This document shows, in pieces, positions 10,294 through 33,518 of a DNA stretch of 64,000 nucleotides (position 1 is its first letter; each line of letters starts with the position of its first letter). The notes below the pieces were generated by a model. The model worked only from the letters and a program-made list of their open reading frames with translations. It made no database searches and had not been told where the DNA came from. A program made the position numbers and the translations under genes. The stretch is taken from NCBI GenBank assembly GCA_031285625.1, contig JAITVV010000053.1, positions 35,180 through 99,179 of the forward strand, read 5' to 3'. This DNA is from Prevotella sp. (GTDB lineage Bacteria; Bacteroidota; Bacteroidia; Bacteroidales; Dysgonomonadaceae).

Positions 10294-10363
10294 CAAATTT
10301 ATTTTTTCAGCATTAATAAACTCATTAAAAAACACATTAAGACCTCCTTAAAATCCTTATTAA
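10294..10363 (-). promoter_or_regulatory. TTAAT-array promoter B, upstream of GH3 (10142)
   Basis: Read on the coding strand (minus), TTAAT or TTAAG boxes lie at plus-strand positions 10312, 10324, 10336, 10347 and 10359 (spacing 12, 12, 11, 12). The proximal box is followed by exactly 10 nt and then TAAATTTG at 10301-10294, a perfect match to the Bacteroidetes -7 consensus TAnnTTTG. No TTTG -33 box is present; the array occupies that position. The array begins just after the GH31 stop codon, consistent with a new transcription unit starting here. Confidence 0.65.
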
Positions 10364-10365
10364 TA

Positions 10366-12729
10366 CTACATTTTTACATTAATCTCCTGTCCCTGATATA
10401 CAATTTGCTTGTCAGCCTGCGAAATGGTGTTTATATTCTTGCCATCTTTAATAATTGTGACATTGAAAGTGCGGTTTTTCAACATGCCCGGAAATTCTCC
10501 CTGACGCGTTCCGATAGTTAGTGTTCCGGTTTTGTCGTCCCATTTCATTTTTATGGTCGAAAAGATGCCTTTTTCGTAATTGTAGTTATCGTTTTCATCT
10601 TCATATAGTACAAACTCGGCATCAGCGCCGGGGAAAATGAAAAGGTTGAGGTTATCCCATCTCTTTTCCTCGGCATACTGTACTTTCGGACCCCACGGTA
10701 GGATACTTCCTGCTTTGATATATAGTGGAATAATATCAATAGGTGTTGCCTTACTGATTTCTTTTCCACCTTCTGTTTTCTCTCCTGTCCAGAAGTCGTA
10801 CCAGTCGGCACCTTTCGGTAAGTATACTTTATGTGATTTTAGAGTGCTGAAATCTTCAACAGCACTGCCGTTTACACGGTTCACATACATAGAGTCGGTT
10901 ACAGGGGCAACAAGAATAGATTTTCCGAACATAAACTGATTGTTTATATCATGCACTTTGGCATCGCTGGCGAAGTCCATACTTAAAGCGCGCATCATAG
11001 AGCCTGCATTGGCTGTAATGTCGTGACCGATAGAGTACATATACGGCAACAGGCTGTAACGCAGATTGATATATTTCTCTTGTGTATCGTAAGCCCAGTC
11101 ACCTTTTTGCCCGAACTGGAAAATCTCACGTGGGGTACTTGTCCCATGCGAACGCATCATCGGGGTGAATGTAGCGAACTGCATCCAGCGTACATACAAT
11201 TCATGGTAGGCTTTGTCCCTGATGCCTTCAGGATATACATGGTGTGCAAAGAACCCGCCTATATCTGTGTTCCAGTAAGGAATTCCGCAAAGTGAGAAAT
11301 TAAGACCGGCAGAAATCTGGTCACGAAGCACATCCCAGCGTGAAACGATATCACCCGACCATGAGTTTGCCCCATAGCGTTGTTGCCCGGCAAAGGCAGA
11401 ACGGGTAAGGATATACACGCGCTTATCGGAAGTAACCTGGCGTTGATAATCGTACACACTACCTACTGATACAAGAGGGAAAGCATTATATACACTACGA
11501 AGCGGTCCCAGATAAGTTTGTTGATTCAGCTCTTTTTTTCCTCCCGAGTATTCAGGTTCGGTAGCGTCCAGCCACCAGCCATCCATACCTATTGAGAAGA
11601 TATTCTTATTCATATAATCCCAGTAGATTTTGCGTGCTTCCGGATTGAAGGCATCATATACTTTCACACCGTTATTATGCGGAAATGTCTCGAAATCGAG
11701 CAACAGGTTTTTCTTTTTCAGGTCTTTATGAATATTTGTGTTTGGTCCGAAAGACGGCCATACAGATATAGCTATATGTGCATTCATCTTATGCACTTCG
11801 TCTATCATCTTTTTCGGGTTGGGGAATGTAGGATTACCAAATTCCACGGCGTTCCAATGCGTATTGTCGGTACTCCAGTATTGCCAGTCCTGCACAATAC
11901 CATCGAGCGGAATATTTAGTTCGCGGTATTTTTTTACAACATCCAACAGTTCGTCCTGTGATGTATACCGTTCGCGGCTTTGCCAGAATCCGTATGTCCA
12001 TAGCGGATACATAGGAGCCTGTCCTGTAAGTTCACGAATACGGGCGATTGTTCCATCAGCATCTTTTCCGTACATGAAGTAATAGTCGATGCAATTGCCG
12101 GCCGTAGAAGTAAATGACAAACCATCATATGAATCTTTGTAAGTAGTAGGGGAGTAGTTGTCCCAGAAAACAGCATAGCCTTTAACCGAATGGATAATCG
12201 GTATGGCTATTTCCATATTCACCTGACGGAGATGAACCTCCTGTCCGCGCTGGTTCATCTTTCCTTGTTGGTGTTGTCCCAGTCCGTAAACAGCTTCCTG
12301 CTTATCCAAAAGGAATGTTTGCTGTACTTCATACGTTTTACCGCTTTCATAATTCTTAGGAGTAAATACGGAAGAAACACTTTTCTCAGCAATAAAAGGG
12401 CGGGTATCTGTTCCATTGAAAAGCACATCCCCGGTAGTCAGGTTCAGGGTGACAATCAGGTCAGCCGTATTCAGCGTGATTACATTGTTGAACTGTTCAA
12501 TCCTGAAATCCGTATTTTCGGGTTCTTTGATAACGGACAGGCTTTTCTTATCCGGTGCTTCTTCCTGAGGATATTTCAGTACCCTGACAATCTGCGGGCT
12601 GAAAAACTGAATTTCGATACTCGTAGATTTTACATTGGTCTTTACTCCCTGCGGCGTGCGTTGGTAATTTTGTGCAACCAACTGACCGGAAAAAATAAGA
12701 ATGAGAAATGTAATAAATGCTTTTTTCAT
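10366..12729 (-). CDS. GH31 alpha-glycosidase (alpha-xylosidase or alpha-glucosidase)
   Basis: 787 residues from the ATG at 12729. The frame runs 33 nt further upstream, but the internal start gives a clean signal peptide (MKKAFITFLILIFSGQLVAQ). It has a GH31 N-terminal beta-sandwich, then a (beta/alpha)8 barrel with nucleophile Asp near 388 in GWWLDATEPE and acid/base Asp near 460 in NSWSGDI, then the C-terminal beta domains. GH31 enzymes are retaining alpha-glycosidases. In a PUL with GH35, GH95 and GH3 an alpha-xylosidase is attractive, but alpha-glucosidase cannot be excluded. It ends the unit that starts with GH92 at 20961; the next unit's promoter array begins 3 nt after its stop. Confidence 0.92.
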   Translation of the reverse strand: MKKAFITFLILIFSGQLVAQNYQRTPQGVKTNVKSTSIEIQFFSPQIVRVLKYPQEEAPDKKSLSVIKEPENTDFRIEQFNNVITLNTADLIVTLNLTTGDVLFNGTDTRPFIAEKSVSSVFTPKNYESGKTYEVQQTFLLDKQEAVYGLGQHQQGKMNQRGQEVHLRQVNMEIAIPIIHSVKGYAVFWDNYSPTTYKDSYDGLSFTSTAGNCIDYYFMYGKDADGTIARIRELTGQAPMYPLWTYGFWQSRERYTSQDELLDVVKKYRELNIPLDGIVQDWQYWSTDNTHWNAVEFGNPTFPNPKKMIDEVHKMNAHIAISVWPSFGPNTNIHKDLKKKNLLLDFETFPHNNGVKVYDAFNPEARKIYWDYMNKNIFSIGMDGWWLDATEPEYSGGKKELNQQTYLGPLRSVYNAFPLVSVGSVYDYQRQVTSDKRVYILTRSAFAGQQRYGANSWSGDIVSRWDVLRDQISAGLNFSLCGIPYWNTDIGGFFAHHVYPEGIRDKAYHELYVRWMQFATFTPMMRSHGTSTPREIFQFGQKGDWAYDTQEKYINLRYSLLPYMYSIGHDITANAGSMMRALSMDFASDAKVHDINNQFMFGKSILVAPVTDSMYVNRVNGSAVEDFSTLKSHKVYLPKGADWYDFWTGEKTEGGKEISKATPIDIIPLYIKAGSILPWGPKVQYAEEKRWDNLNLFIFPGADAEFVLYEDENDNYNYEKGIFSTIKMKWDDKTGTLTIGTRQGEFPGMLKNRTFNVTIIKDGKNINTISQADKQIVYQGQEINVKM

Positions 12730-12750
12730 GATTATATTGTTTTGTACTTG

Positions 12751-12865
12751 TCTCTTTGTCATTGACTACACTTTGTTTCGTCGAACATTGTTTCTGAACG
12801 AAGTGAAAAATCTCGTATCTCTTTGAGGGTCGAGATTCTTCGTTACACTCAGAATGACAAAGAGG
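12751..12865. repeat. Dispersed palindromic repeat, copy 5 (long variant)
   Basis: About 115 bp. It has an extra segment of about 33 bp (from 12761) inserted in one arm; the same segment occurs, inverted, in copy 9 near 36310-36345. It lies between the GH31 and GH3 genes. Confidence 0.8.
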
Positions 12866-12872
12866 GTATTTA

Positions 12873-15464
12873 TTAATTACCGACTTGTAACTCGTAACTG
12901 CCCACAGGGCGAAGTAACTTGTAACTACTTTTCAATCGGATATCGGCAGACGAAGAGCCAACCATAAATTCATAGTTGCCGTGAGGCACAATGAATTGTC
13001 CGCTCTCAGTGTCCCAATATCTTAACAGGTCTTTCCTTATTTCGATTTCGATATTTCTGGTCTCTCCCTTTTTGAGGGTATTACGCTGAAAGCCTTTGAG
13101 TTCTTTTATCGGTGTAAACTCTCCGGTATGAGGTAGTTTTACATATACCTGTGAAACTTCATCGCCATTCATTTTACCTGTGTTTTTCAGGTTGAACGAC
13201 ACTTTTACGGTGTTTCCGTTATCACTTATTTTCAGATTGTTATAAGCAAAAGTTGTATAGCTTAATCCATACCCGAAAGGATATAGTGGTTTACCTTTAA
13301 AGTATTGATACGTCCTGCCTTTAGAGATATCGTAATCATCAAATGCAGGCAGTTCATCAAGGCTATTGTAGTAGGTTATCGGCAGCCGTCCTCCGGGATT
13401 GTAGTCTCCAAATAATACTTCGGCTACCGCAGTTCCCCCTTGCTCGCCCGGGTACCAGGCATTCACTATGGCAGGGATATTCTCGTCCATCCAGTTGATA
13501 GCCAAAGAGCTACCTGCAACAAGTACTACAACAATATTAGGATTCACTTTGTATATTTCCTCTATAAATTCCATCTGGTCGACAGGCAGGTGAATGTCAT
13601 ACCTGTCTTGCCCTTCACGTTCTATTGTTTTATTGATACCCAGTACGGCAATCACACGTTCACATTCGCGCACAGCCTTGCCGGCTTCACCATACATATC
13701 GAGGCGTTCTTTTGTATCTATTGCCGGTACTTTCCAATATAATTTAGCAACTGCATTGTCGCGGTTATTGAAATACTCGGCTTTGATGTCATATTCTTTT
13801 CCGGCTTCGAGACGGAGGCTGACCGAGTCGGTCGAAATACTTCTTTCATGCCATTCATCAATCAGTTTTTTATCATCTATGAAAAGGCGGCATCCATCAT
13901 CCGCATTGAAATAAATCGTATAGTCTCCCGATACGGCAGGTTTTAATTTTCCTGTCCAGCGTATAGAAATAGGAAATGGAGGAATAAACGGGTCGGGCGC
14001 CTGATTTGCAGGCTCGAAGTTTATCCATTCTTCGGTGCGTGTTTTAGCGTTACCTGTAAGTTCCATATTGGTAAAGTATTCCGTTTTCAGTCCACCGGGA
14101 AAATGTGTTGCAGATATCATTTCTTTTCCGTCCATAGCTGATTTCCACGGGGCATAGACAATCTTCACCTTATCTCCTACCTTATCTTTTATCCCTTGCA
14201 AAACCGATACCGGAGCGTTGGCAGGTATGCCGCTATAATCTCCAAACTCAGAGTTGCCTGCATTGATACCGACAACAGCTATGGATTTTACTTTTTTAGG
14301 ATTGATAGGCAGGGCATTGTTCTTATTCTTCAACAAGACAATACTCTGGCGGGCAGACTCCAAAGCCAGTTGCTTGTGTGCTTCGGAACCGACCACAGAA
14401 GGAGAGATTTTGTTATAAGGATTTAGGGTTGGGTCGTCAAATAAACCTAAATGCATACGGGCTCTCAATACCCTGTATGCAGCCGTGTCTATATCGGCTT
14501 GCGATACCATATATTGGTTATAAGCGTTCAGCAGCGGTTGCATATATACATCATCGCCACATTCGAGGTCGAGCCCTGCCTTGATAGAAAGCGTGGCGGC
14601 GGCTTCTTTTGTTTTCACATATTTCATAGCCGACACCAAGAGGCTTGGTCCTCCACAGTCGGAAACCACATAGCCGTTAAAGCCCCAGTCGTGTCGCAGG
14701 ACTTTGGTCAGCAGCCACGGATTAGCCGTGCAAGGCACATCGTTGATAGCATTATATGCTGACATAATGGAAGCGGATTTTCCTTCCCTGACACACATTT
14801 CGAATGCAGGGAAATAGTATTCCCGCAGTTGCTTTTCTGAAATCTGCGGATTGCAGACAAAGCGGTTATGCTCCTCGTTATTGGCGGCGAAATGCTTCGG
14901 TGTGGAAACGATTTTCAGGTAGCGAGGGTCATTGCCTTGCAGCCCTTTTACAAAGGCTGTTCCTAATACACCCGATAGGTAAGGGTCTTCTCCGTATGTC
15001 TCGGGTGTGCGTCCCCAACGCGGGTCGCGTGCCATATTAACGGTCGGTGACCAGAAGGTAAGCAGGTCGGTAAAACGCTGTGTTTGCAGCCTACCTTGTT
15101 CCAGTTCGTTCCAACGTCCGCGCGCCTCATCCGAAATAGCTGTGGCTATCCGGTAATGCAGGTCGGGATTCCACATACTGGCAAGTCCTATAGCCTGCGG
15201 AAATACGGTAAAGCGTCCCGGGCGTACTACGCCGTGCAGGGACTCGTTGCCGTGGTAATATTTGGGTATTTGCAGGCGCTCTATACCAGGAGAGGTTGCT
15301 CTTAGTAAACTGATTTTTTCCTCTATGGTTAATTGGGACAATAAGTCCATGATACGGTCGTGCGTAGGCGCACTCTCGTCCAGATAAATGTCTTTCTTTT
15401 GAGCATTTGCTGATGATAAGACAAATAGAAAGCAAATAAGTATGATTCCCTTGTATATTTTCAT
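12873..15464 (-). CDS. GH3 beta-glycosidase with PA14 domain (beta-xylosidase/glucosidase type)
   Basis: 863 residues from the ATG at 15464. The extension to 15521 (MRVEILRCTQNDK) is translated dispersed repeat and is rejected; MKIYKGIILICFLFVLSSANAQ is a normal signal peptide. Barrel motifs include NMARDPRWGR, PKHFAANNE and nucleophile Asp269 in GYVVSDCGG. A PA14 domain spans about residues 455-600, followed by the second GH3 domain and an Fn3-like C-terminus. The sequence style resembles bacterial beta-xylosidases or beta-glucosidases. The last 17 or so residues (SYKLLRPVGSYELQVGN) are encoded by a second dispersed repeat at 12883-12926, which has evidently become the natural C-terminus. 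Confidence 0.92.
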   Translation of the reverse strand: MKIYKGIILICFLFVLSSANAQKKDIYLDESAPTHDRIMDLLSQLTIEEKISLLRATSPGIERLQIPKYYHGNESLHGVVRPGRFTVFPQAIGLASMWNPDLHYRIATAISDEARGRWNELEQGRLQTQRFTDLLTFWSPTVNMARDPRWGRTPETYGEDPYLSGVLGTAFVKGLQGNDPRYLKIVSTPKHFAANNEEHNRFVCNPQISEKQLREYYFPAFEMCVREGKSASIMSAYNAINDVPCTANPWLLTKVLRHDWGFNGYVVSDCGGPSLLVSAMKYVKTKEAAATLSIKAGLDLECGDDVYMQPLLNAYNQYMVSQADIDTAAYRVLRARMHLGLFDDPTLNPYNKISPSVVGSEAHKQLALESARQSIVLLKNKNNALPINPKKVKSIAVVGINAGNSEFGDYSGIPANAPVSVLQGIKDKVGDKVKIVYAPWKSAMDGKEMISATHFPGGLKTEYFTNMELTGNAKTRTEEWINFEPANQAPDPFIPPFPISIRWTGKLKPAVSGDYTIYFNADDGCRLFIDDKKLIDEWHERSISTDSVSLRLEAGKEYDIKAEYFNNRDNAVAKLYWKVPAIDTKERLDMYGEAGKAVRECERVIAVLGINKTIEREGQDRYDIHLPVDQMEFIEEIYKVNPNIVVVLVAGSSLAINWMDENIPAIVNAWYPGEQGGTAVAEVLFGDYNPGGRLPITYYNSLDELPAFDDYDISKGRTYQYFKGKPLYPFGYGLSYTTFAYNNLKISDNGNTVKVSFNLKNTGKMNGDEVSQVYVKLPHTGEFTPIKELKGFQRNTLKKGETRNIEIEIRKDLLRYWDTESGQFIVPHGNYEFMVGSSSADIRLKSSYKLLRPVGSYELQVGN
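12883..12926. repeat. Second dispersed repeat (ACTTGTAACT family), coding copy
   Basis: 44-bp imperfect palindrome, from ACTTGTAACTCG through GCCCACAGGGC to GTAACTTGTAACT. A near-identical copy lies at 50009-50053. Here it is translated as the C-terminus of the GH3 enzyme. Confidence 0.8.
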
Positions 15465-15479
15465 TGTTATTGTATTATT

Positions 15480-15562
15480 CTCTTTGTCATTCTGAGTGCA
15501 ACGAAGAATCTCGACCCTCAAAGAGATAAGAGATTCTTCACTTCGTTCAGAATGACAAAGAG
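15480..15562. repeat. Dispersed palindromic repeat, copy 6
   Basis: 83-bp copy between the beta-helix gene and the GH3 gene; source of the false N-terminal extension of the GH3 reading frame. A further repeat-like stretch (GTTAACTG...GTTAACTGTC) follows at about 15570-15595 and runs into the next stop codon. Confidence 0.85.
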
Positions 15563-15593
15563 GGTTTTATTGTTAACTGATGATTGTTAACTG

Positions 15594-16901
15594 TCACTCT
15601 GTTCCTAAATTTCCGTTTATATAACTACTCTTTGCATTATTGTTGATGCGTACCTTTCCTTTAATAGTGTTTTCGCTGACAATGGCACGGTCTACATTGC
15701 TGCCGATGGATATTTGCGGGCTGTCGTGCATAAAGTCGCATCCACGGACAGATACAGAGCCGCTGTTGACCTGTATGGCGCTCCGGTTTTCTTTGTCCCT
15801 GTCCCACTGAACGAAGATACAGTCAGAGAAACCGACTGTGCCCTGTCCGTTGATTTTGGCTATCTGCTCGCATGGCCCCCAGAAAGCACTGTTTACAAAG
15901 CGTACATTTCCTTTATTAGCATCCGTAACCACTACCATTGTAGGGTCGTCGCCATGCATCGCAACAAATTCGCCGTTGGTAATAAGTATTCCATAAGCAG
16001 CACTCTGATCTACTTTAACAGCAGTGTGGCATGCATCGGCTCCGATGCCTAAGAAGTTCCCGTTGCAGGAGCCGGTGCTACCCTGGCTTGCTCCAAACTT
16101 ATAACCAACATTGTATCCGAAGCAGAATGTGTTGAGTACATAGTGCCAGTCGGTGCGCTCGAAGATAAATGCTTCGCCGTGTTCCCTTTGCCAGTTGTAA
16201 AGGGTAGGCTTCATGCTCCACCATGGGTTCCAGTGTACATTTTCTATTCTGCCTATATCATAAATTGCATCCACATAAATTCCCCTGCGCAATGGCTGTC
16301 CACTGATATTGCGGATGAGCGCGCGTTCGTTATGCGAGGCATCGATTGCGTTGTAAGGGTTCAGCATTTCCACATCGAGCAAAGCCGGGTTTTTTCCTTT
16401 CATAGCTACTCCCCACGGATATGCATCAGGCACTTTGTCTGGGTCTTGCAGTGGCCAGTACATCACTACTCCGCGTAGCGTACTGTTTGTATTGATTGTG
16501 ATAGCCGGAGTAGCATCAATATCTTTTCCTTTGCCTCCTGTAATTAGCAGGGTAGTGCCATCTTCGCCGGGTTTAGGGAGTCCTGCATTGCGGATTCCAT
16601 TGTGTGAAGGAACGGATTCGAAAGCCCCTTTCAGGGTAACAGCCTGGGGTATATTCAGTGAACCAGCGATGAGATATGTACCATTTGGTATATATACCGT
16701 TCCGCCCCTTTTCCCAAAAGAGTCCATTGCTTTCTGGATAGCATTGGTATCATCCGTTTTTCCATCGGCTTTTGCCCCGAAATCAAGAACCGAAACTATG
16801 TCTTTAGATTCGGGATGTGGCTTGATATCTGCATTTCTTTGTTGTGCAGTAAGGCTGGCCATTACAAGAAACAGTAATGGTAAAATGAATAATTTTTTCA
16901 T
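15594..16901 (-). CDS. Secreted right-handed beta-helix protein, Pectate_lyase_3 type
   Basis: 435 residues with a signal peptide (MKKLFILPLLFLVMASLTAQ). The opening segment VLDFGAKADGKTDDTNAIQKA and then GGTVYIPNGTYLI are hallmarks of the pectate-lyase-3/GH55-like parallel beta-helix superfamily, followed by many short coils with Asn- and Gly-rich turns. Members include polygalacturonases, epimerases, lyases and beta-1,3-glucanases. No family-specific catalytic pair is obvious to me, so the reaction is left open. Its place between GH3 and GH43 suggests action on a side chain or backbone of the same glycan. It might be the only candidate for an endo-acting enzyme in this arm apart from the GH71/99-like proteins. 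Confidence 0.75.
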   Translation of the reverse strand: MKKLFILPLLFLVMASLTAQQRNADIKPHPESKDIVSVLDFGAKADGKTDDTNAIQKAMDSFGKRGGTVYIPNGTYLIAGSLNIPQAVTLKGAFESVPSHNGIRNAGLPKPGEDGTTLLITGGKGKDIDATPAITINTNSTLRGVVMYWPLQDPDKVPDAYPWGVAMKGKNPALLDVEMLNPYNAIDASHNERALIRNISGQPLRRGIYVDAIYDIGRIENVHWNPWWSMKPTLYNWQREHGEAFIFERTDWHYVLNTFCFGYNVGYKFGASQGSTGSCNGNFLGIGADACHTAVKVDQSAAYGILITNGEFVAMHGDDPTMVVVTDANKGNVRFVNSAFWGPCEQIAKINGQGTVGFSDCIFVQWDRDKENRSAIQVNSGSVSVRGCDFMHDSPQISIGSNVDRAIVSENTIKGKVRINNNAKSSYINGNLGTE

Positions 16902-16911
16902 GATAATATAT

Positions 16912-16990
16912 ATTAGCGAATTAGCGAATTAGCAGATTAGCAGATTCATTCTTACATTTCCGAATCTGCTAATTTTCGAATTTGCTAATT
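16912..16990. repeat. Intergenic inverted repeat built from TTAGC units
   Basis: An imperfect palindrome with arms at about 16912-16946 and 16963-16990, made of repeated ATTAGC/GCTAAT words. The TAG stop codon of the GH43 gene (16985-16987) lies inside the right arm. It may form a hairpin in the polycistronic mRNA. Confidence 0.7.
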
Positions 16991-18697: not shown

Positions 18698-18699
18698 GA

Positions 18700-20961: not shown

Positions 20962-20999
20962 AATAGGTTAATTTATTAATTTGAATTTATTCACAAATA

Positions 21000-21045
21000 C
21001 AAAGTAAACCTCATTCAATTAATAGTTAGATTAATTCTGTATTAA
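21000..21045 (-). promoter_or_regulatory. TTAAT-array promoter D, upstream of GH92 (20961)
   Basis: On the minus strand, TTAAT boxes lie at plus positions 21018, 21030 and 21041 (spacing 12, 11). The proximal box is followed by exactly 10 nt and then TTACTTTG (21007-21000), 7 of 8 matches to TAnnTTTG. Predicted leader is about 35 nt. Confidence 0.6.
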
Positions 21046-21067
21046 TATTCAGAAAAAAGTAGAATAA

Positions 21068-21108
21068 ATTTCACTAATCCGGAGTATACTATTCCGGATT
21101 AGTGAAAT
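21068..21108 (-). terminator. Hairpin after the SusC-SusD-DUF3823 operon
   Basis: Perfect 16-bp inverted repeat (21068-21083 with 21093-21108, 9-nt loop) 10 bp beyond the stop of the DUF3823 gene, followed in the minus direction by an AT-rich stretch including TTTTTT. It separates the SusCD operon from the GH92 promoter and could act as a terminator or an mRNA 3' stabiliser. Confidence 0.65.
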
Positions 21109-21118
21109 GTTTAATCAG

Positions 21119-23964: not shown

Positions 23965-23978
23965 AATTATGAATCTCT

Positions 23979-26900
23979 TTAAAATTTAATAGTTGCACCA
24001 ATGTTCCATGTACGGTTTAGAGGATATCGGTAATTACCTGTTACATCATTACTGTTTTTGTCAGTATTACCATCTATCGCACCACCCTGTCCTCCGGGAT
24101 GTTCCGGATCCATGCCGTCCAAACCTGTGAAGGTAAGCAGGTTGTATCCACTCACATACACTCGCACATTTTTCGCTCCTACTTTTGATACTAATTTTTT
24201 AGGAAGGGTATATCCTATTTCCAAAGATTTCAAGCGCAGATAAGAAGCACTCTCGATGCGTGTCGATCCGTCAGGGTCATATTCGGCGCCTGTAGTAACC
24301 GGGAATTTTCCAGGTATCCATTTAGAGTTTGGATCGTACATTTTAGACGGGTCTTCCGGATGCCATCTATCCCAGAATTTAATGTTTGTACCTCCATCAT
24401 CCCATCCAAGAGGCTGGGCGTACGTTTCAGTATATCTGTAATGTATACCGGCTGCTCCCTGGAAACTAGCATTCAGGTCGAAGCCTTTATAGGCCGCACC
24501 AATGTTGAATCCATAGTTGAACAAAGGCATACCGAAAGTAGCCAGTGCCTGCATATCTTTGTCGTTGATTACACCGTCACCGTTCCAGTCTTGGTAATAG
24601 TAATCACCAGGGCGCATGCCACCGCCTCCGCCGAGGCGATACGAGTCGAAATTATAGATTTGGTCGAAGCTTTGGAATTGTCCCAATGTCTTCCGTACAA
24701 ACCAAATATCTTTGTAGCGATTCGTATTATCTCTACGTTTCCAGTTCTCGAAAGAGTTACCTGCCGGGCCTTGATCCAGCTTGTTCCTCCATTCGTTGCG
24801 GGTAGCGAACATATTAGCACTGATATTGTATTCAAAACCACCTATATTATTGCGGTGATATATCGACATATCGTATCCGAAAGTACGGTCTGTGTTCATG
24901 TTTTCCTCAGGCATATCGGCACCTACTGTTTTTGGGAGTGCCTCCGTTGATCTGCCTATAAGCCCGTCCCTGTTTCGTACATAGTATTCGAAGCTACCGC
25001 CCAACAGGCCGTTCCACATTTCTGCTTCGATACCTACATTGAGCATTTTGGCTGTATACCATGTGAGGTCGGGATTAGGTAATGAAGTCGGCTTCAATCC
25101 AGATTCCACGCCTCCGTTAGCACCATATATCCAGGCTATTTCCTGAGCTATTTGATACGCTGCACTCACTGTCGGATAATTGGATGCGGCACCGTCATCT
25201 CCCATCACACCATACGAACCTTTCAATTTGAGGTTGTTGATAAACGACAGAGGCGATTCTTTGAAGAACGTTTCTTCGCTGATGCGCCAGCCTGCCGAAA
25301 CCGAACCGAACATCCCCCATTGGGATTCTTTCGGGAACTTGGATGAACCATCATAACGCCCGGCAACTTCCAACAAGTATTTACCTGCATAGTCGTAGTT
25401 GAATTTACCTACAAAAGCCTGGCTCGATCTGTCCCAAGGAGAGCCTGAGTTCATAGAGCCTATTTGGCCGAGCGCGTCGCCGGCAAACAAGTATTCGGAA
25501 TTCAACGACAAATATCTTTTCGCATAAAAGTTATCACCTGTGCTGTATCCGTCTTCGAAGAGTATCAAGGCAGCCACATTGTGCACGTTGTTGAATGTAC
25601 GGTTGTAGTTCAATGAGAGCTGTAAGTTACGGTTTTCCCATTTCTCGTCCATTCGCTGGACTGATCGTTTCGATGGCGTACCACCGTCTCCCATTATAGC
25701 TCCTCCTGATTTATAGGTATCAGTGGCTTCATCATAATTATAGAGGCTATATCCTCTTTTTAGCCACCTGGAATCTTTGTCGCGGAAATCGTAATAGTAC
25801 GAAGCCTTAGCTGATAATCCTTTGATGCCGGGAATGTCGTAAGTGAGAGACAACTGTCCGTTAAATTTACGGTTGATGTACTTATTTTCTCCTACATACT
25901 TGGAATCAGTGTTAGCCAAAGGATGTCCGTCTATCAAACGATTATATTTCTCACCGGGAGAGGCGTTCAGATAGTTCGGGTTATTATTGGCATACACGGG
26001 AACATGAGGTTGTTGTACAAATACATTCTTATAAACGGTCCAAATATCTATACCAGGTTCTACCATATCATCCATGTATCCACCCAAAGAGACTGAAGCC
26101 TTGAGACGCTTGGTGATATTTACATCGACATTGGAACGGAAATTCCAACGGTCGTAGTTCATGGAATTGCTCCTGAGGGCAGATTCCTGATCCATATAAC
26201 CCAAGCTGAAGAAATAACGAACCGTTTCGGAAGCGCCATTCATGGTGATATTATGTTGCTGCTGCATAGCATTATTCCTAAAGGTTGCTCCCAGCCAATC
26301 GGTTGTTTTGCGTGTACCATCCCGGTAGGGTTGGTAGTCTGCATCCGTAAACTGAGGCACTGTGTTACCTGTCAGTGTATTGAACCAGTTTCCGGCATAT
26401 ATTTTTTCATTTACTAGATCCATATATTGTGTCGCATTTACATTATCGGGTACATACAAAAATTGCTGCCAACCGAAGTTCACTCCATATTCAATCTCAA
26501 AAGCTTTACCTCCGGTTGCCCCTCTTTTAGTGGTTACCAGTACAACACCGTTAGCCGAACGCAACCCGTAAATAGCGGCAGAGGCATCTTTCAGTATGGA
26601 AACACTTTCGATTTCGGAAGCATCCATGCGTTGGAAGGTATCGTTGTCAGAAGGAACACCATCGATGATAATCAGCGGAGAGCCTAATCCGCGAATATCG
26701 AATTTGGACTCGAATGCTCCCGGACGGCTACTGGTCTGTGTTACACGTAATCCTGGCAGTTTACCGGCAAGCATGTTCACTACGTTTTCGTTCTTTGTTA
26801 CTGTAATTTCCTTGCTTGCTACACTTGATACCGAACCCGTTAGAGTAGCTCTCTTCTGTGTGCCGTATCCTACTACAACTACATCATCCAATTCGGTTAA

Positions 26901-27239
26901 GTTCTCTTGCAATGTAATTGTAAAATCGGTGTTGTTATCCACCGGAACTTCTTTTTTGATATATCCGATAAATGAAACTATCAGCTTATTGTTAGCAGAA
27001 GCTTCAATGTTGAATTTACCGTCAATATCAGTCAGGGTTCCCCGCTGAGTGCCACTGATAGTGATCGATGCCCCGGGTATAGGTTCTCCCTGAGTGTCTG
27101 TAACTGTACCTCTGACTGTCTTTGTCTGCGAGAATGCGATAAGAGGCATCATCAGGCAAAGTAAAAGAAGTCCGGTGTACCGCCATATAATATGGCTACG
27201 CTCTTTTTTTCTTTTAATTTCTTGGTTGTGATTTTCCAT
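23979..27239 (-). CDS. susC: SusC/RagA-family TonB-dependent outer-membrane transporter
   Basis: 1086 residues. After a positively charged start and a signal segment (WRYTGLLLLCLMMPLIAFS) comes a carboxypeptidase-like beta-sandwich (TVRGTVTDTQGEPIPGASI), then the plug domain (VVVGYGTQKRATLTGSVSSV, LIIIDGVP, SILKDASAAIYG) and a 22-stranded barrel ending in an aromatic-rich strand (TWNIGATIKF). No extra N-terminal sigma/anti-sigma signalling (STN) domain is visible, so it should be a pure transporter. It moves oligosaccharides across the outer membrane using TonB energy with its SusD partner. It is the only SusCD pair in the window and so defines the PUL. Confidence 0.96.
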   Translation of the reverse strand: MENHNQEIKRKKERSHIIWRYTGLLLLCLMMPLIAFSQTKTVRGTVTDTQGEPIPGASITISGTQRGTLTDIDGKFNIEASANNKLIVSFIGYIKKEVPVDNNTDFTITLQENLTELDDVVVVGYGTQKRATLTGSVSSVASKEITVTKNENVVNMLAGKLPGLRVTQTSSRPGAFESKFDIRGLGSPLIIIDGVPSDNDTFQRMDASEIESVSILKDASAAIYGLRSANGVVLVTTKRGATGGKAFEIEYGVNFGWQQFLYVPDNVNATQYMDLVNEKIYAGNWFNTLTGNTVPQFTDADYQPYRDGTRKTTDWLGATFRNNAMQQQHNITMNGASETVRYFFSLGYMDQESALRSNSMNYDRWNFRSNVDVNITKRLKASVSLGGYMDDMVEPGIDIWTVYKNVFVQQPHVPVYANNNPNYLNASPGEKYNRLIDGHPLANTDSKYVGENKYINRKFNGQLSLTYDIPGIKGLSAKASYYYDFRDKDSRWLKRGYSLYNYDEATDTYKSGGAIMGDGGTPSKRSVQRMDEKWENRNLQLSLNYNRTFNNVHNVAALILFEDGYSTGDNFYAKRYLSLNSEYLFAGDALGQIGSMNSGSPWDRSSQAFVGKFNYDYAGKYLLEVAGRYDGSSKFPKESQWGMFGSVSAGWRISEETFFKESPLSFINNLKLKGSYGVMGDDGAASNYPTVSAAYQIAQEIAWIYGANGGVESGLKPTSLPNPDLTWYTAKMLNVGIEAEMWNGLLGGSFEYYVRNRDGLIGRSTEALPKTVGADMPEENMNTDRTFGYDMSIYHRNNIGGFEYNISANMFATRNEWRNKLDQGPAGNSFENWKRRDNTNRYKDIWFVRKTLGQFQSFDQIYNFDSYRLGGGGGMRPGDYYYQDWNGDGVINDKDMQALATFGMPLFNYGFNIGAAYKGFDLNASFQGAAGIHYRYTETYAQPLGWDDGGTNIKFWDRWHPEDPSKMYDPNSKWIPGKFPVTTGAEYDPDGSTRIESASYLRLKSLEIGYTLPKKLVSKVGAKNVRVYVSGYNLLTFTGLDGMDPEHPGGQGGAIDGNTDKNSNDVTGNYRYPLNRTWNIGATIKF

Positions 27240-27450
27240 AATATACTTCTTAAATAAAGTAATTAATAATAAAATTTAAGTTTTGTGTGAATTGTCTTAC
27301 CTGAATGTTTTATAGTATTAATATTTCCAAATTCTATTCACACATCTCAATAGCATCTTATTCCTGTGAGTCAGGAAGAGTTAATAGGGTTCGTTTTCAT
27401 GATTGATTATTGGTTAAATGGTAAATGTTTTTAGGTGTGTGTATTTTTAG

Positions 27451-27544
27451 CTAATGTATATAACATATATTAATAATTTTGTAAAAAAATCATTAATAGG
27501 TTCATTAAAATTTCTATAATATTGTCTTTTAAATCATTTATTAA
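27451..27544 (-). promoter_or_regulatory. TTAAT-array promoter C, upstream of susC
   Basis: On the minus strand, TTAAT boxes lie at plus positions 27469, 27492, 27504 and 27540, with weaker in-phase words at about 27516 (TTATA) and 27528 (TTAAA); the register is close to 12 bp across the array, with one unit position (about 27480) degenerate. Ten nt after the proximal box is TACATTAG (27458-27451), 7 of 8 matches to TAnnTTTG. This would give a leader of about 200 nt. Confidence 0.55.
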
Positions 27545-27604
27545 TGCGGTTTTTGCATTTTGAGAGGAAATAATGCTTTATCTGTATTTGGAATTATCTT
27601 TATT

Positions 27605-27699
27605 CTCTTTGTCATGCTGAGGAACGAAGGATCTTTCTTCATTATTCCATGAATAAGTGGAAGTGGGTCGGGATGCTTCCTTCGTCAGCATGACAAAGA
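27605..27699. repeat. Dispersed palindromic repeat, copy 7
   Basis: 95-bp copy of the variant with GCTGAGG/CCTCAGC-like arms, downstream of the GH3 gene at 27717 and upstream of the susC array. Confidence 0.8.
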
Positions 27700-27716
27700 C
27701 AGTATAACCTAATATC

Positions 27717-30563
27717 TTAATTAATGAGACTTTTGTATTTAGTCATAAACTGTAAAGATTTGGAGCCCTCCTTAACTTTAAACCTGAATTGTTTCTCTTC
27801 ACCCGGATCAAGCTCATAATGGCGGTCGTCTCCTGTTTTTATCCCGTCAATGAATAATGATAATTTACCTGTATCTGTTATGTTTCCGGTATTGGTAACC
27901 AGTACATTGGCTGCACCATCTTCTACCGTTACCACAGTGATTGCAAAATCGGCAGCAAACTCCATAGGGTAATAGATCTCTCCATTTACTCCGTCTTTGC
28001 TGTTCTCGAAGCCTACGCTGTCTTTTATTTTGTCAGCAGCAATATATGCCGGGCTTTTTCCTCCAACCATAATCTTGAATGTGCCTTTTTCAACTACACG
28101 GTCCATTTGGTCGTTCAGTAACGATAATTGATAAGGAGTCAACATAAACGATACGGTTTTGGATTCTCCCGGATTCAGGTGTACACGGTCAAAGTCTTTC
28201 AGTTCCATTACACGTGTTTTTACGCTGGCATACATATCTGTTACATATAATTGTGCAACTTCGTCTCCGGCTTTTGTACCGGTATTTGTTACTGTAGCTT
28301 GTACAGAAACATTCCCATATTTATCTATAGAAGTTTTCAGGTCTGAGTAGCTGAATGAAGTATAGCTTAATCCATATCCGAAGCGGTATAGAGGATAATA
28401 AGGCATATCTTCGTATTGATAGACACGTCCGGATGTTTTGAAGTTGTAATATAATGGTAGTTGTGCTACATCTCTGGGGAAGGTCATAGGAAGACGTCCG
28501 GCAGGATTATAATCTCCAAAGATGACATCAGCGGTTGCATGCCCTCCTTCCTGGCCCGGTAGCCAGTTTACAAGAATTGCCTTGCAGTTCTTTGATGCAT
28601 AAGTGAGGTTGTAGGGACGTCCGGCTTGGAGAACCAATATCACAGGCTTTCCTGTCTTGCATACGGCTTCTAATAGCTTTTGCTGATCGCCTGGTAATAC
28701 TAATGTAGCATAATCATGGTTTTCACCCGATGTATTGCGGATACCTTTTAAGGCTTCGCTGGTAGAACAATCTCCCAGAACAAGAACTGCTACCTCTGCA
28801 CTCATAGCTGCTTTTACAGCTTTCTCTATTTCCGATCCCTCCGATCCTGTAAAATTACAACCTTTTTCATAAATGACTTTTGTACTGTTTCCTAATGTTG
28901 CTTTTATTCCGGTAAGAACAGATTTCAACTGGTTTGGCTGCGGTTTTGATGTATAATCTCCGGGCTGCAGGTTATCTGCTCCGGGACCTATAACTGCTAT
29001 TGTCTTTATTGTTTTAGATAATGGGAGCATGTTGTCTCTATTTTCTAATAATACGATTGACTCGCGTGCAACCCTAAGAGCTACTTCCTGATGTTCGGGA
29101 GAATTCCATCCCGGATAAATCTTGTTCCAGTCAAGGGCTTTAGATGGGTTATGCTCAAATAGTCCGTTTCTGAACAAGGTGCGTAGCATTGTTTTACATG
29201 TAAAGTTGAGGTCTTCCATATCCAGTTCACCTCTTACGGCTGCAGCTATTACTTCCGGATCGTTGTATGTATCTCCACAGTTTGTAGCTATTCCGGCTGC
29301 TAATGCCTGTCTGGCAGCTTCTATCCTATCCTTTGCAGTATAGTGTTTGCGGCTGGTAAGATTTCCCAGTGCGCCACAGTCGCTGACAATAAATCCATCA
29401 AATCCCCATTCGTCGCGTAAGATACCTTTCAGTAGTTCTTTACTTTTGGCTACCGGCACTCCCATGTAATCAGAATATGCCATCATGATAGACTGGCATT
29501 TGTACTTCTTTATCACATGGCGGAATGGTACAAGGTGTACTTCGCGCATTTCTCTTTCACTCAATCCTATATCATGTGAGTCGCGTCCACCGAGTGGTGC
29601 CCCATGAGCTGCAAAATGCTTGGGAGTTGTCATCAGCCCTCTCGACTGGTATCCTTTTATCCACGCACCACCTATTTCCGATACCAATACAGGGTCTTCA
29701 CCGTATGTTTCTTCGCAGCGGCCCCAGCGTGCGTCCTGTGCTACATCGAGTACCGGAGACCATGCCTGTATAGCATTGGCGCTTTTTGTTTCGTCTGCTA
29801 TTATCTGTGCAGCTTCTTCTATCAGTTTTTTGTTCCATGTAGCTCCCATGCCTATCGATTGCGGGAAGATAGTGGCTCCGCTACCATACGAAAATCCGTG
29901 GATTGCTTCTACTTTCATTACAGCAGGAATCCCCAGGTGCGGTACCCCCGGTATTCCCCATCCTTCGCGCAGTAGCTCCATCTTATCTTCTGTTGTCATT
30001 GCCGAAAGCAAGCTTTCAACACGTAGTTCTAACGGAAGGTCGGGATTCATGTATGGTCTGTTGTTCAGGTCAGAACTTGTTTTTCCTGTTTTAGAATCGG
30101 ATAAGAATACACGAAGTTCTTTTATTGATAGTTTACTAAAAGCCTGTGCTTTGATATTTATTTTTATATGTGCCCCATATTTAGGAGAAAAAGACAATAT
30201 ATATGTATCATCGTTTTCCGGTTTAACGGAGTACTGAACAACATTACCCGGGTTCATAGGATCATAAGTGATAAATATATCCAATGCATTCTGAAGACTT
30301 TGTAACGAAGCTCCGTCTGCTTGTAGTATTATTCTTTCCACATCGCCCGACTGCTGTAGGGTAAGAGTCAGCGTTTGCCCTTTTTTCAGGTCATTTGCTG
30401 ACAGGCTCCAGCCCGTTTTAGCGTCTTTGTCAAATATGTTTTTTGCAGATGCCTGATTAACTGAGGTTACTGCAGAAGCAATGTTTGTTTCCTGAGCTAT
30501 ACACAGATAACTAAAGAAAAAACAAAATATTAAAAAAATGCCTGTTCTTATTGATTTTTTCAT
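27717..30563 (-). CDS. GH3 beta-glycosidase with N-terminal F5/8C-like domain
   Basis: 948 residues with a signal peptide (about 1-24). Residues about 25-155 look like a discoidin-type sandwich (AKNIFDKDAKTGWSLS ... LSIKELRVFLSD), probably carbohydrate binding. The GH3 barrel follows, with KVEAIHGF, QDARWGRCEETYGEDP, TPKHFAAHG and nucleophile Asp395 in GFIVSDCGAL; then the alpha/beta sandwich and Fn3-like domain. A further C-terminal beta domain of about 100 residues makes it longer than the other two GH3 enzymes here, and it lacks their PA14 insert. It forms a single-gene unit divergent from the regulator, with its own TTAAT-array promoter. Confidence 0.92.
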   Translation of the reverse strand: MKKSIRTGIFLIFCFFFSYLCIAQETNIASAVTSVNQASAKNIFDKDAKTGWSLSANDLKKGQTLTLTLQQSGDVERIILQADGASLQSLQNALDIFITYDPMNPGNVVQYSVKPENDDTYILSFSPKYGAHIKINIKAQAFSKLSIKELRVFLSDSKTGKTSSDLNNRPYMNPDLPLELRVESLLSAMTTEDKMELLREGWGIPGVPHLGIPAVMKVEAIHGFSYGSGATIFPQSIGMGATWNKKLIEEAAQIIADETKSANAIQAWSPVLDVAQDARWGRCEETYGEDPVLVSEIGGAWIKGYQSRGLMTTPKHFAAHGAPLGGRDSHDIGLSEREMREVHLVPFRHVIKKYKCQSIMMAYSDYMGVPVAKSKELLKGILRDEWGFDGFIVSDCGALGNLTSRKHYTAKDRIEAARQALAAGIATNCGDTYNDPEVIAAAVRGELDMEDLNFTCKTMLRTLFRNGLFEHNPSKALDWNKIYPGWNSPEHQEVALRVARESIVLLENRDNMLPLSKTIKTIAVIGPGADNLQPGDYTSKPQPNQLKSVLTGIKATLGNSTKVIYEKGCNFTGSEGSEIEKAVKAAMSAEVAVLVLGDCSTSEALKGIRNTSGENHDYATLVLPGDQQKLLEAVCKTGKPVILVLQAGRPYNLTYASKNCKAILVNWLPGQEGGHATADVIFGDYNPAGRLPMTFPRDVAQLPLYYNFKTSGRVYQYEDMPYYPLYRFGYGLSYTSFSYSDLKTSIDKYGNVSVQATVTNTGTKAGDEVAQLYVTDMYASVKTRVMELKDFDRVHLNPGESKTVSFMLTPYQLSLLNDQMDRVVEKGTFKIMVGGKSPAYIAADKIKDSVGFENSKDGVNGEIYYPMEFAADFAITVVTVEDGAANVLVTNTGNITDTGKLSLFIDGIKTGDDRHYELDPGEEKQFRFKVKEGSKSLQFMTKYKSLIN

Positions 30564-30864
30564 CGGTATTATTGTTATTTGGGTTAAATATTTTTTCAGA
30601 AAATTTCAGGAAATGTGTTTTTCCGTTCGTTAAATTATATTTACAAAATAAAGAGCAGGTTATTAAAAAAACTGGAAATCAGGACTTAATAAGATCATTA
30701 AAATTTGATTAATTTGTAATATTAATGAGGGTTTTCATTAAAAAAAGGAGTTTTAATATAAATCAGATATTATTTTGTTGGATTAAAAAAAGAAATAAAG
30801 TATTTTTACATTCGTTAGCTTATTTCGTATTGTGAAAATTATTTGGCTTACTACATAAATTCAG
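30564..30864. other. Divergent 301-bp control region between GH3 and the Kelch-SARP regulator
   Basis: AT-rich. Holds array promoter E on the minus strand (30644-30712) and a perfect 7-bp inverted repeat TTAATGA/TCATTAA (30722-30728 and 30735-30741). For the rightward regulator gene only a weak -7-like word TACATTCG at 30807-30814 is seen, with no -33 partner. Confidence 0.65.
30644..30712 (-). promoter_or_regulatory. TTAAT-array promoter E, upstream of GH3 (30563)
   Basis: On the minus strand, TTAAT/TTAAG boxes lie at plus positions 30662, 30685, 30697 and 30708 (spacing 23, 12, 11; one unit position empty). The proximal box is followed by exactly 10 nt and then TTATTTTG (30651-30644), 7 of 8 matches to TAnnTTTG. 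Predicted leader about 75 nt. Confidence 0.55.
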
Positions 30865-33432
30865 ATGAGAAAACTTCAGCTTACTGTATTATTCGTATTT
30901 GTTTCCGTATTGCTAAATACTGTACATGCCGATGATATAGACTATGGCTTGTTTATTAAGGCATTTCCTTTTAGCGACCATGAAAAGACATCTCTTGTTT
31001 TGGAGAATAACCAGCCTGTAAAACTGGGGAAAGAGACGGCTATGTCATTTGAGATGAATGTGCGTAAAGACAATGTCTTCGGAATTGTATTCCGGATGAT
31101 AACTAACAAGAAAGACAATATAGACCTGTTGTTTACCGTAGGAGAGAATGACAAACGTTATCCTATGCTTGTGGTAAACGAATCGGTGTTTATGATTACG
31201 CAGGAAATAAGTTGTAATCAGTGGGTTCCTGTGAGTATAACGTTTTCCTCTGCAAAAAATGAAATCACATTAAATTACGGGGAGTCAAAACTATCGGTTC
31301 CGTATCCTGTGTCACAGGTTAATAACGCAATGATTTCATTTGGGCTTTGTCCCTTCGAAGGGTATACCCTTTATGATATTGCCTCCGTTAATATAAGGAA
31401 TATAAAGCTAACAGAAGGAGGGAATACAACCCGTCTTTGGACACTGGAAAAACATGAAGGGAACAATAGTTTCGATTCGGTGTCGCAAGTACCTGCTATT
31501 GCTGCCAATCCATTATGGATAACTGATATTTATGCATCATGGGAAAAGATATATTCCAAACCTGTAAAAGAGAATGCATTATTTGCCTTTAATCCCGAAC
31601 AGAGTACTATATATATTGCGTCACCCGATTCTAAAGAAGTTATTGCATTTGATGCCGTACAGAAAAAGGAAAACCTGCTTCAGGTGAGAGATGGTATTAT
31701 AGCTGCAAATGCACCTAATCAACTGTTCTATGATCCACGTCGCAACCAGTTGGTATCTTATAATCTGGATGAAAATATTATCTCCCGTTTTTCATTTACC
31801 AGCAGCACGTGGGATAGCCATATAAAGCCTTTACTGGAACATGGGTATTGGAACAATTCAGTTTCTTATTCACCTTCCGATTCCACACTTATCTCTTTTG
31901 GTGGATATGGCTTTTATAAATACAATAATGACCTGATTCGCTTAGATATAGACAGGAAATCTATAAAGAAATCGAATCTTCCGGAAATCCCCCCCCGCTA
32001 TTCTACATCAACAGTTATCGTAAATAAGGTATTATATGTATTCGGCGGAAGAGGTAACAAGTCGGGTAGGCAGGAGTTATCACCGCGCAACTTCTATGAC
32101 TTTTATTCAGTAAATCTGCTTACCGAGCAAACAAATAAGCTATGGGAACTGGATAGTATAGACAGTGATTTTCTTCCAAGCGAAAATATGGTTTTTGACG
32201 AGAAAGAAAATTGTTTCTATGTTTTTACGTCTAAAGATGGCGGGACACTGCTAAGGATAAGAAAAGACAACAGTGGGTATGAGCAGGCATCTTATCCTAT
32301 ATATGAAGATCTGACCTCACATTATTTATATACTAACCTGTATTATTCTCCCGGTCAAAAGAAATTCTATGCGTTGGTAAACAAGATCAAGACAGATAAG
32401 TCGGCAGAGGTTTCCATATATTCGCTCAATTATCCTCCTGTAACAATAAAGATGGTAGACCCTGCCCTTGTACAGGCAGAAGATACCCAATCTTTATCGA
32501 AGTGGATAATGATAATAGGTATTATAACCGGACTTATCATTGCAGCATTGGTTTTATACTATCTGGTGAAGAAGCAGATGTCGCATAGGCGTACAGACCG
32601 TGTGGCAAATAATGTTTCAGATTATGTAGCTATTGCCGCCAATAAAGTAGAAAAAAGTAAAGAACCGGAGCAGCTTTATTATGATTTTTCTAAAAAATCC
32701 GTTTGCTTCCTCGGAGGCTTTAATGTGATGGATAAGAACGGGCAGAATATTACAGGGCAGTTTACCCCTATGCTCAAATACCTGCTTGTACTATTAATAT
32801 TGTCTACAGAGAAAGACGAAAAAGGTATATCCGGCAAAAAGCTGATCCAGTTATTATGGTACGATAAGAACGAAGAATCTGCAAAGAATAACCGCAATGT
32901 GTACCTGAGCAAACTACGTTCGGTTCTCGAGAATGTGGGTAATGCTGAGATAATCAACCAGAGTGGTTTCTGGACAATAAAGTTTAACGATATAGCTTGT
33001 GACTATGTTGAAGCAATGCGCTTATTCTCGGCAATAAAAGATAATAATGATTCAGAACAATCTGATATAGATCATCTACTTGAGCTGCTGTTGCGTGGCG
33101 TATTGTTACCAAACACAGAAGCCGACTGGGTAGACGGGTTTAAAAGTGATTTTTCGAATATGACGATAGATATACTCACCGAGCTGTCTCAGAGTAATTA
33201 CAATAAATTGACTGACGACCTTAAACTGAAAATTGCCGACACACTATTTTTGCACGATTTTATAAATGAGGAAGCATTATACCTGAAATGTTCTATTTTC
33301 TTTAACTCGGGGAAGAAAGGTATTGCAAAAACTATTTATGATAATTTCAGCAAAGAGTACTTCAATCTGCTGGGTACAAAGTATAAATATTCACTGACGG
33401 ATGTAGTAGAGAGGAAGAATTTAGAGCAATAG
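30865..33432 (+). CDS. Transmembrane Kelch-SARP transcriptional regulator of the PUL
   Basis: 855 residues. Signal peptide about 1-22; a LamG/concanavalin-like sandwich about 35-200 (SFEMNVRKDNVFGIVFRM and following); a Kelch-like propeller about 230-530, with motifs such as YSTSTVIVNKVLYVFGGRG. A single membrane helix lies at about 547-569 (WIMIIGIITGLIIAALVLYYL), followed by positive residues. The cytoplasmic part has an OmpR/SARP-type winged helix about 608-708 (GISGKKLIQLLW, NVYLSKLRSVLE, INQSGFWTIKF) and a helical BTAD/TPR-like tail. It has no kinase, receiver or AraC domain, so it is not a classical hybrid two-component sensor or SusR. I infer a one-component sensor that reads glycan in the periplasm and acts on the TTAAT arrays. 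Confidence 0.8.
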   Translation: MRKLQLTVLFVFVSVLLNTVHADDIDYGLFIKAFPFSDHEKTSLVLENNQPVKLGKETAMSFEMNVRKDNVFGIVFRMITNKKDNIDLLFTVGENDKRYPMLVVNESVFMITQEISCNQWVPVSITFSSAKNEITLNYGESKLSVPYPVSQVNNAMISFGLCPFEGYTLYDIASVNIRNIKLTEGGNTTRLWTLEKHEGNNSFDSVSQVPAIAANPLWITDIYASWEKIYSKPVKENALFAFNPEQSTIYIASPDSKEVIAFDAVQKKENLLQVRDGIIAANAPNQLFYDPRRNQLVSYNLDENIISRFSFTSSTWDSHIKPLLEHGYWNNSVSYSPSDSTLISFGGYGFYKYNNDLIRLDIDRKSIKKSNLPEIPPRYSTSTVIVNKVLYVFGGRGNKSGRQELSPRNFYDFYSVNLLTEQTNKLWELDSIDSDFLPSENMVFDEKENCFYVFTSKDGGTLLRIRKDNSGYEQASYPIYEDLTSHYLYTNLYYSPGQKKFYALVNKIKTDKSAEVSIYSLNYPPVTIKMVDPALVQAEDTQSLSKWIMIIGIITGLIIAALVLYYLVKKQMSHRRTDRVANNVSDYVAIAANKVEKSKEPEQLYYDFSKKSVCFLGGFNVMDKNGQNITGQFTPMLKYLLVLLILSTEKDEKGISGKKLIQLLWYDKNEESAKNNRNVYLSKLRSVLENVGNAEIINQSGFWTIKFNDIACDYVEAMRLFSAIKDNNDSEQSDIDHLLELLLRGVLLPNTEADWVDGFKSDFSNMTIDILTELSQSNYNKLTDDLKLKIADTLFLHDFINEEALYLKCSIFFNSGKKGIAKTIYDNFSKEYFNLLGTKYKYSLTDVVERKNLEQ

Positions 33433-33460
33433 TGAATATAAAATATAATCTTTTTTCATT

Positions 33461-33518
33461 TTAATAGTATATTAAGTGGTGTGTTAATAGTCTTATTAAT
33501 ATACATCACTTTTCTTTG
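33461..33518 (+). promoter_or_regulatory. TTAAT-array promoter A, upstream of GH95
   Basis: TTAAT, TTAAG, TTAAT and TTAAT start at 33461, 33472, 33484 and 33496 (spacing 11, 12, 12). The last box is followed by exactly 10 nt and then TTTCTTTG at 33511-33518, 7 of 8 matches to TAnnTTTG. The GH95 start codon is 31 nt further on. This copy is on the plus strand, so the array is oriented with respect to transcription. Confidence 0.65.

Follow-up and report, generated by a model that had tools for sequence, protein, structure and literature searches.

What activates a polysaccharide utilization locus (PUL) whose promoters carry a -10-like element without its usual upstream partner? The question is raised by a stretch of 64,000 nucleotides, hereafter the window, from Prevotella sp. 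(GTDB order Bacteroidales, family Dysgonomonadaceae; GenBank assembly GCA_031285625.1, contig JAITVV010000053.1, positions 35,180 to 99,179 of the forward strand), in which each of five PUL transcription units is preceded by a row of TTAAT-like boxes ending a fixed distance before a -10-like octamer. An earlier note on this DNA had described these arrays and proposed that they form a shared operator class for PUL activation, similar to that of the Streptomyces antibiotic regulatory proteins (SARPs), with the protein encoded at 30865-33432 as the candidate to bind them. Our analysis of the window, of its genome and of related genomes leads us to conclude that the arrays are probably operators of this protein, the PUL's own regulator, through which it would bind and act in activation. 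The arrays are probably its landing strips because, in relatives, such rows travel with the family of membrane-anchored sensor regulators to which it belongs.

Box arrays and octamers at the five PUL promoters

TTAAT-like boxes stand on the coding strand at all five PUL promoters with steps of mostly 11-12 bp, the exceptions among the five arrays being two 13-bp steps and one 23-bp step. In every array, exactly 10 nucleotides (N10) separate the last box from an octamer similar to TAnnTTTG, the element found at -7 in the promoter consensus of Bacteroides fragilis, where it is accompanied by TTTG near -33 (PMC7366714). The 30 bp preceding each of the five octamers contain no TTTG, and because the octamers have no -33 partner the five promoters look activator-dependent. 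TTAA being palindromic, the arrays show as chains on both strands and their direction is given by the octamer. For counting, we used a strict pattern made of three TTAA at 11 or 12 bp, N10 and TnnnTTTG. The arrays and octamers are, in window coordinates:

33461 to 33500, forward strand: four-box TTAA array (33461, 33472, 33484, 33496) upstream of the GH95 gene; strict whole-genome match
33511 to 33518, forward strand: -10-like octamer TTTCTTTG, N10 past the last GH95 box
10312 to 10363, reverse strand: five-box array (10363, 10351, 10340, 10328, 10316) upstream of the GH3 gene 7470-10142; strict match
10294 to 10301, reverse strand: -10-like octamer TAAATTTG, N10, promoter of GH3 7470-10142
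21018 to 21045, reverse strand: three-box array (21045, 21034, 21022) upstream of the GH92 gene; strict match
21000 to 21007, reverse strand: -10-like octamer TTACTTTG, N10, GH92 promoter
27469 to 27544, reverse strand: seven-box array (27544 to 27473) upstream of susC, with TTATA and TTACA as imperfect boxes and one 13-bp step
27451 to 27458, reverse strand: -10-like octamer TACATTAG, N10, susC promoter
30662 to 30725, reverse strand: array (30725, 30712, 30701, 30689, 30666) upstream of the GH3 gene 27717-30563, with steps of 13, 11, 12 and 23
30644 to 30651, reverse strand: -10-like octamer TTATTTTG, N10, promoter of GH3 27717-30563

The exact gap of 10 nucleotides and the absence of the TTTG -33 box, both claimed by the earlier note, are confirmed at the five promoters, while other parts of its description stand with restrictions. 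All five arrays are present where it had placed them, but only three of the five match the strict pattern; the steps do mix 11 and 12 bp, but the arrays of susC and of GH3 27717-30563 are longer and imperfect, and require degenerate boxes or a double step; the octamer is recognizable in each case, but all six fixed positions of TAnnTTTG are matched by a single one, the other four matching five of the six. Arrays like that of susC, with N10, occur in the orthologous loci L041-L045.

A genome scan against shuffled intergenic sequence, as the earlier note had suggested, was performed. The genome holding the window (96 contigs, 4.84 Mb) contains three strict matches, all in the studied PUL, and none to the pattern taken backwards; in the intergenic sequence of the window there are three matches, versus none in 400 dinucleotide shuffles. 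Because the strict pattern was made after the window arrays had been seen, the tests on relatives weigh more.

Arrays and regulator homologues across the family

Homologues of the regulator exist in 42 of the 101 genomes of the family. Sixty of the 66 matches in other genomes were examined with their surroundings (two of the six omitted are short fragments) and, together with the window and two paralogues from its own genome, they constitute a set of 63 loci, whose regulators form 20 clusters by single linkage at 50% identity; a SusC-like gene is present in 50 of these loci. Their intergenic sequence (132.8 kb) holds 26 strict matches, whereas 60 shuffles gave 0.03 on average and the reversed sequence none, and relaxed criteria gave 46 matches in 40/63 loci and 11/20 clusters (0.45 when shuffled, 0 when reversed). 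Over the 101 genomes, 40 strict matches were counted forward versus 4 backwards. A homologue is found at 3 kb or less from 24 of the 40 and at 30 kb or less from 32, the 3-kb surroundings amounting to about 0.17% of the family sequence (expected numbers for linkage, inside and outside the family, assume 3.4 Mb per genome). A strict match is present in 23 of the 42 regulator-bearing genomes versus 2 of the 59 regulator-less ones (Fisher p 2.4e-9).

The spacing also emerges from counts made without a preset word: among pairs of 5-mers in 49 susC upstream regions, the top ones at 11/12 bp are TTAAT, ATTAA and then TTAAC. In the same regions, TTAA pairs number 19 at 11 bp and 20 at 12 bp, versus 2, 2, 3 and 2 at 9, 10, 13 and 14 bp. 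The offset was studied on chains of at least three TTAA picked without regard to the promoter (104 in total, 67 of them intergenic with a downstream gene): TTTG is found at N10 in 29 of the 67, these 29 coming from nine regulator clusters; N11 accounts for 3, and no other offset from 0 to 32 for more than 3. Since TTAA is palindromic, many of the remaining chains correspond to an array read in the opposite direction. The last box stands N10 from the -10, or N11 in some subfamilies, and a 12-bp step is present in 39 of the 40 strict family matches.

The two paralogues in the genome of the window each adjoin a susC gene, and arrays are present in both susC upstream regions: for paralogue L007, boxes 12 and 12 bp apart, N10 and the octamer CATTTTTG; for paralogue L009, boxes 11, 11 and 12 bp apart, two of the four being ATAA, N11 and the octamer TAGATTTA. 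Locus L050 presents at 13799-13910 a single seven-box TTAA array between two divergent genes, with an N10 octamer on each side.

Box letters and recognition helix

The letters that follow TTAA vary with the residue directly after R-x-V in the recognition helix of the regulator; in AfsR, the corresponding helix inserts into the major groove (PMC10936776). When this residue is T, CC follows TTAA in 37 of 45 boxes (19 loci), versus 0/54 boxes (14 loci) when it is Y, 2/66 (17 loci) when it is N and 2/14 (4 loci) when it is S. Loci L236 and L237 are exceptions, presenting a T after R-x-V and yet boxes that are not mainly CC. The helix was located in 54 of the 56 array-bearing loci (the script found none for L214 and L224), and the count includes the out-of-family locus L220 because, unlike the locus scan, it sets no minimum intergenic length. 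A tree was made of the array-associated regulators, 55 of 56 (all but L065), and box classes were attributed to them by hand; it shows two class changes, versus a mean of 16 when shuffled, one for a large clade and the other for L007, a paralogue from the genome of the window. The choice of the 30865-33432 protein as candidate is supported on both counts, the arrays co-occurring with its homologues and the box letters co-varying with its recognition helix.

Tests outside the family

The out-of-sample tests are the order-wide scan for presence and linkage and the out-of-family locus scan. With a profile of the regulator domain, 23 genomes from other families were found to contain 42 homologues in total, and the regulator family is found in at least 29 of the 393 genomes sampled across the order, a scan which scored up to six first-look candidates in the genomes listed and may miss homologues. 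Nine of the 131 out-of-family strict matches lie within 10 kb of a homologue, for about 0.09 expected. The criteria of the family, applied as they were, gave 18 arrays, distributed over 15 of the 40 out-of-family loci examined (two of G474 omitted), in 86.7 kb of intergenic sequence with a shuffled mean of 0.3 and none when reversed, and no array was found in 20 control stretches (77.8 kb of intergenic sequence from two regulator-bearing genomes; shuffled mean 0.1). When seven named loci were scanned without the intergenic filter, L128, L129, L133 and L134 had an array. The out-of-sample weight rests on the linkage test and not on the presence/absence table, which is a weak one (a strict match in 11/23 genomes with the regulator versus 81/364 without; Fisher p 0.0097).

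The candidate regulator and its relationship to SARPs

Two features of the regulator gene are used below:

30865 to 33432, forward strand: candidate regulator, with an N-terminal signal-like stretch, a kelch-like region, a predicted transmembrane span at about residues 550-568, and a predicted cytoplasmic winged helix-turn-helix plus BTA-like domain
32560 to 33429, forward strand: C-terminal 290 residues of the regulator, the SARP-like region that entered alignment A1 and holds the recognition helix NNRNVYLSKLR

Scanned with Pfam at E up to 10, the regulator gives kelch-type matches, a weak Trans_reg_C match and two unrelated weak matches, and no histidine kinase, receiver or AraC-type domain. 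Among its named relatives, the nearest is that of Dysgonomonas sp. 521 (76%), ahead of one recorded under the name Prevotella sp. 10(H) (72%) and of those from other Dysgonomonas. The domain profile built from 62 homologues was compared by hhalign with 10 Streptomyces SARP/BTAD proteins and scored 94.1% (P 1.3e-7) over 222 columns covering both subdomains, the unrelated control, SusD, scoring 0.1%. By homology the regulator domain presents the OmpR-type winged helix and the BTA domain that characterize SARPs. The placement is different, since the domain does not stand at the N-terminus but in the last 290 residues, behind the hydrophobic span 550-568, and the BTAD model run on the own genome gave four matches at E up to 1, all of them below the cut-off and outside the three regulators. 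We do not claim SARP membership, because the features of curated model and architecture are absent. Judged by sequence, the cytoplasmic domain is related to SARPs, and the regulator domain appears to work like a SARP rather than being one. The shared SARP-like operator class put forward by the earlier note gains support from the genome scan against controls, the out-of-sample families and this profile match, the binding and activation being what the class would imply.

Weighing of the explanations

Several observations speak against the arrays being activating operators of this regulator family. By the criteria used, no array was found in 23 of the 63 family loci, in 25 of the 40 out-of-family loci, or in L130, L131 and L132 among the seven named loci, and the control stretches gave one match when reversed. 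The strict pattern was defined after the window arrays, and the relaxed criteria after the family arrays, had been seen. Outside the family, 81 of the 364 genomes in which no homologue was detected also contain the strict pattern. The spacing is 11+11 in 69 of the 106 matches from regulator-negative genomes of the order, and in three of the nine regulator-linked matches outside the family. For this reason, part of the class is to be attributed to other regulators or to chance. On the protein side, Pfam at E up to 0.1 gives weak matches, to Trans_reg_C in 15/62 members and to BTAD in 7/62, and a PDB profile search with the regulator domain returned no SARP among 8 matches. Finally, the co-variation ties the boxes to the regulator at the level of sequence but amounts to two events only.

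Among the alternatives, the one that survives best keeps the arrays as operators of the regulator and assigns them to repression, or to anchoring of the DNA to the membrane, instead of polymerase activation. The predicted membrane anchor of the regulator would suit it, and the last box overlaps the -33 position, from which a bound protein could block the polymerase. We nevertheless hold this alternative to be unlikely: the five octamers without a -33 partner make the promoters look activator-dependent, and the fixed N10/N11 fits a contact with the polymerase, AfsR activating from a similar position.

It is less likely still that the arrays are PHO-box-like and bound by a PhoB/OmpR-type response regulator, their nearness to the kelch regulator being coincidental. 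PHO boxes are likewise 11-nt direct repeats occupied head-to-tail (PMC4415409), and in homologue-negative genomes of the order TTAA triples at 11+11 spacing with a -10 are numerous, some reading TTAACATTnnn. The family matches differ from these, with a 12-bp step in 39/40 of them versus 69/106 at 11+11 in the regulator-negative genomes; linkage and co-variation both connect the arrays with the kelch regulator, and no response regulator was found among the 27 window proteins scanned with Pfam. As an observation apart, the 11+11 triples of the regulator-negative genomes are possibly the operators of another OmpR-type regulator, and that they may be PHO-type operators is a guess.

Intrinsic DNA shape, by which phased AT tracts would bend the promoter and aid the polymerase without a dedicated protein, finds some basis in the AT-rich and roughly helix-phased boxes, and is in our opinion very improbable, since steps are 11-12 rather than 10.5 bp, the core contains a TpA step (a point of general knowledge), and bending alone does not account for the change of box letters 5-6 from one regulator to another (TTAAT versus TTAACC). 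Incidental phasing in TTAA-rich intergenic DNA, suggested by the AT-richness of this DNA and by matches of the backwards pattern in many genomes across the order, has almost no credit left before 26 real strict matches versus a shuffled mean of 0.03 and none reversed, the 77.8 kb of control intergenic sequence of two regulator-bearing genomes without a match, and the single-offset peak at N10. Chance was rejected for the regulator-linked arrays as a set (shuffles, reversed sequence, linkage, controls and offset); arrays taken singly could be due to it.

Proposed mechanism

Activation by the PUL's own regulator through the arrays is the explanation that we retain. Starting from what was computed, namely the arrays, their fixed N10 (N11 in some subfamilies), their linkage to the regulator family, the helix co-variation and the domain relationship, we infer binding, activation, ligand, topology, sigma contact and stoichiometry as follows. 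The 30865-33432 protein would belong to a family of one-component regulators, anchored in the membrane and present in many Bacteroidales. Its kelch-like region, presumably periplasmic, would sense a glycan, and the signal would pass through the single membrane span to the cytoplasmic winged helix and BTA-like helical bundle, which would bind the array head-to-tail, each TTAA box receiving one protomer. At the last box, the bound protomer may then substitute for the missing -33 element and recruit RNA polymerase to the weak -10, like AfsR at afsS. If this is true, a regulator family found in 42/101 family genomes and in at least 29/393 across the order would possess a sequence-readable operator paired with its cognate sensor, a SARP-type promoter layout would serve glycan genes outside Actinomycetota, and the manner in which a membrane-bound protein reaches several promoters at once would become testable.

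Genes of the PUL and other features of the window

The Pfam scan of window proteins assigns to the PUL GH95, GH92, GH43 and GH31 enzymes, three GH3 enzymes, susC/susD and DUF3823 genes. The presumed targets of the arrays, and the unit read behind the GH92 promoter, are:

33550 to 35991, forward strand: GH95, presumed target gene
23979 to 27239, reverse strand: SusC-like transporter, first of the susC/susD/DUF3823 genes (to 21119), presumed target
27717 to 30563, reverse strand: GH3, presumed target gene
7470 to 10142, reverse strand: GH3 (PA14), presumed target gene
10366 to 20961, reverse strand: GH92, GH43, pectate-lyase-like, GH3 and GH31 genes, taken as a single unit behind the GH92 promoter (presumed operon extent)

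A second GH92 gene lies at 51479-53767, apart from the five arrays. The window also contains a dispersed intergenic repeat, TTTGTCATGCTGAGGnACGAAGnATCT, at 27608-27634, 27671-27697, 36115-36141 and 55309-55335 (four copies when up to three mismatches are allowed, versus a mean of 0 in 100 shuffles), and more partial copies are seemingly present, by eye, in the gap from GH95 to 36390. At 45725-46594 an AraC-type regulator gene adjoins two SnoaL/DUF4440-like genes, and the product of 54736-55302, whose gene is adjacent to an ankyrin-repeat gene, matches the Imm43 and Imm11 immunity-protein families barely over their cut-offs.

Comparison with known systems

The direct repeats recognized by SARPs are spaced by 11 or 22 bp, with the one on the 3' side 8 bp from the -10, and AfsR sits as a side-by-side dimer over the -35, contacting sigma region 4 (PMC10936776). 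The arrays share with SARP operators (AfsR, the afs box) direct repeats about one turn apart, a short fixed gap to the -10 and an overlapped -35, and the proteins share the OmpR-type winged helix and BTA domain aligned by hhalign. They differ by having three to seven boxes and steps of 11 and 12 mixed (12 in 39/40 strict family matches) instead of 11 or 22, and by their setting, i.e., a Bacteroidales host, the vicinity of PUL genes, and a domain that is C-terminal behind a membrane span and a kelch-like region. A SARP-like distance to the -10 is seen as N10 after a 5-nt core (29/67 chains), a comparison that hinges on the position chosen as the end of the repeat.

The PHO box consists of two 11-nt direct repeats bound head-to-tail by PhoB, a two-component activator (PMC4415409). 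The 11-nt direct repeats resemble ours, whereas the arrays include 12-bp steps and box letters tracking the kelch regulator subfamily, and Pfam found no receiver domain in the regulator. As for PULs, the regulators known from the articles consulted are SusR-like proteins and hybrid two-component systems (HTCS) (PMC3878776; PMC11253607), and hemicellulase genes are controlled by HTCS and by extracytoplasmic function (ECF)-sigma/anti-sigma systems (PMC10766802). A SusR-like motif extends over six or seven helix turns, and the mean distance between HTCS sites is 21 bp (PMC3878776). Both classes resemble the present one by a membrane-spanning sensor linked to its own PUL and by direct-repeat operators; the differences are that no kinase, receiver or AraC domain was found by Pfam in the regulator, and that the arrays proceed by tandem 11/12 steps with no six- or seven-turn spacer. 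Among the matches listed in the open-licence PMC literature (titles and abstract starts), a SARP-like or kelch-type PUL regulator was not found, and one may still be in print. On balance, we lean towards an additional class of PUL control, next to the HTCS, SusR-like and ECF-sigma ones, in which membrane-anchored kelch sensors would align three to seven SARP-like protomers on tandem boxes with steps of 11 and 12 bp mixed and replace the -33 contact at a fixed N10/N11, with a readable recognition code (after R-x-V, Y or N for mostly TTAAT-type boxes and T for TTAACC) from which the PUL targets of each paralogue could be read in the sequence.

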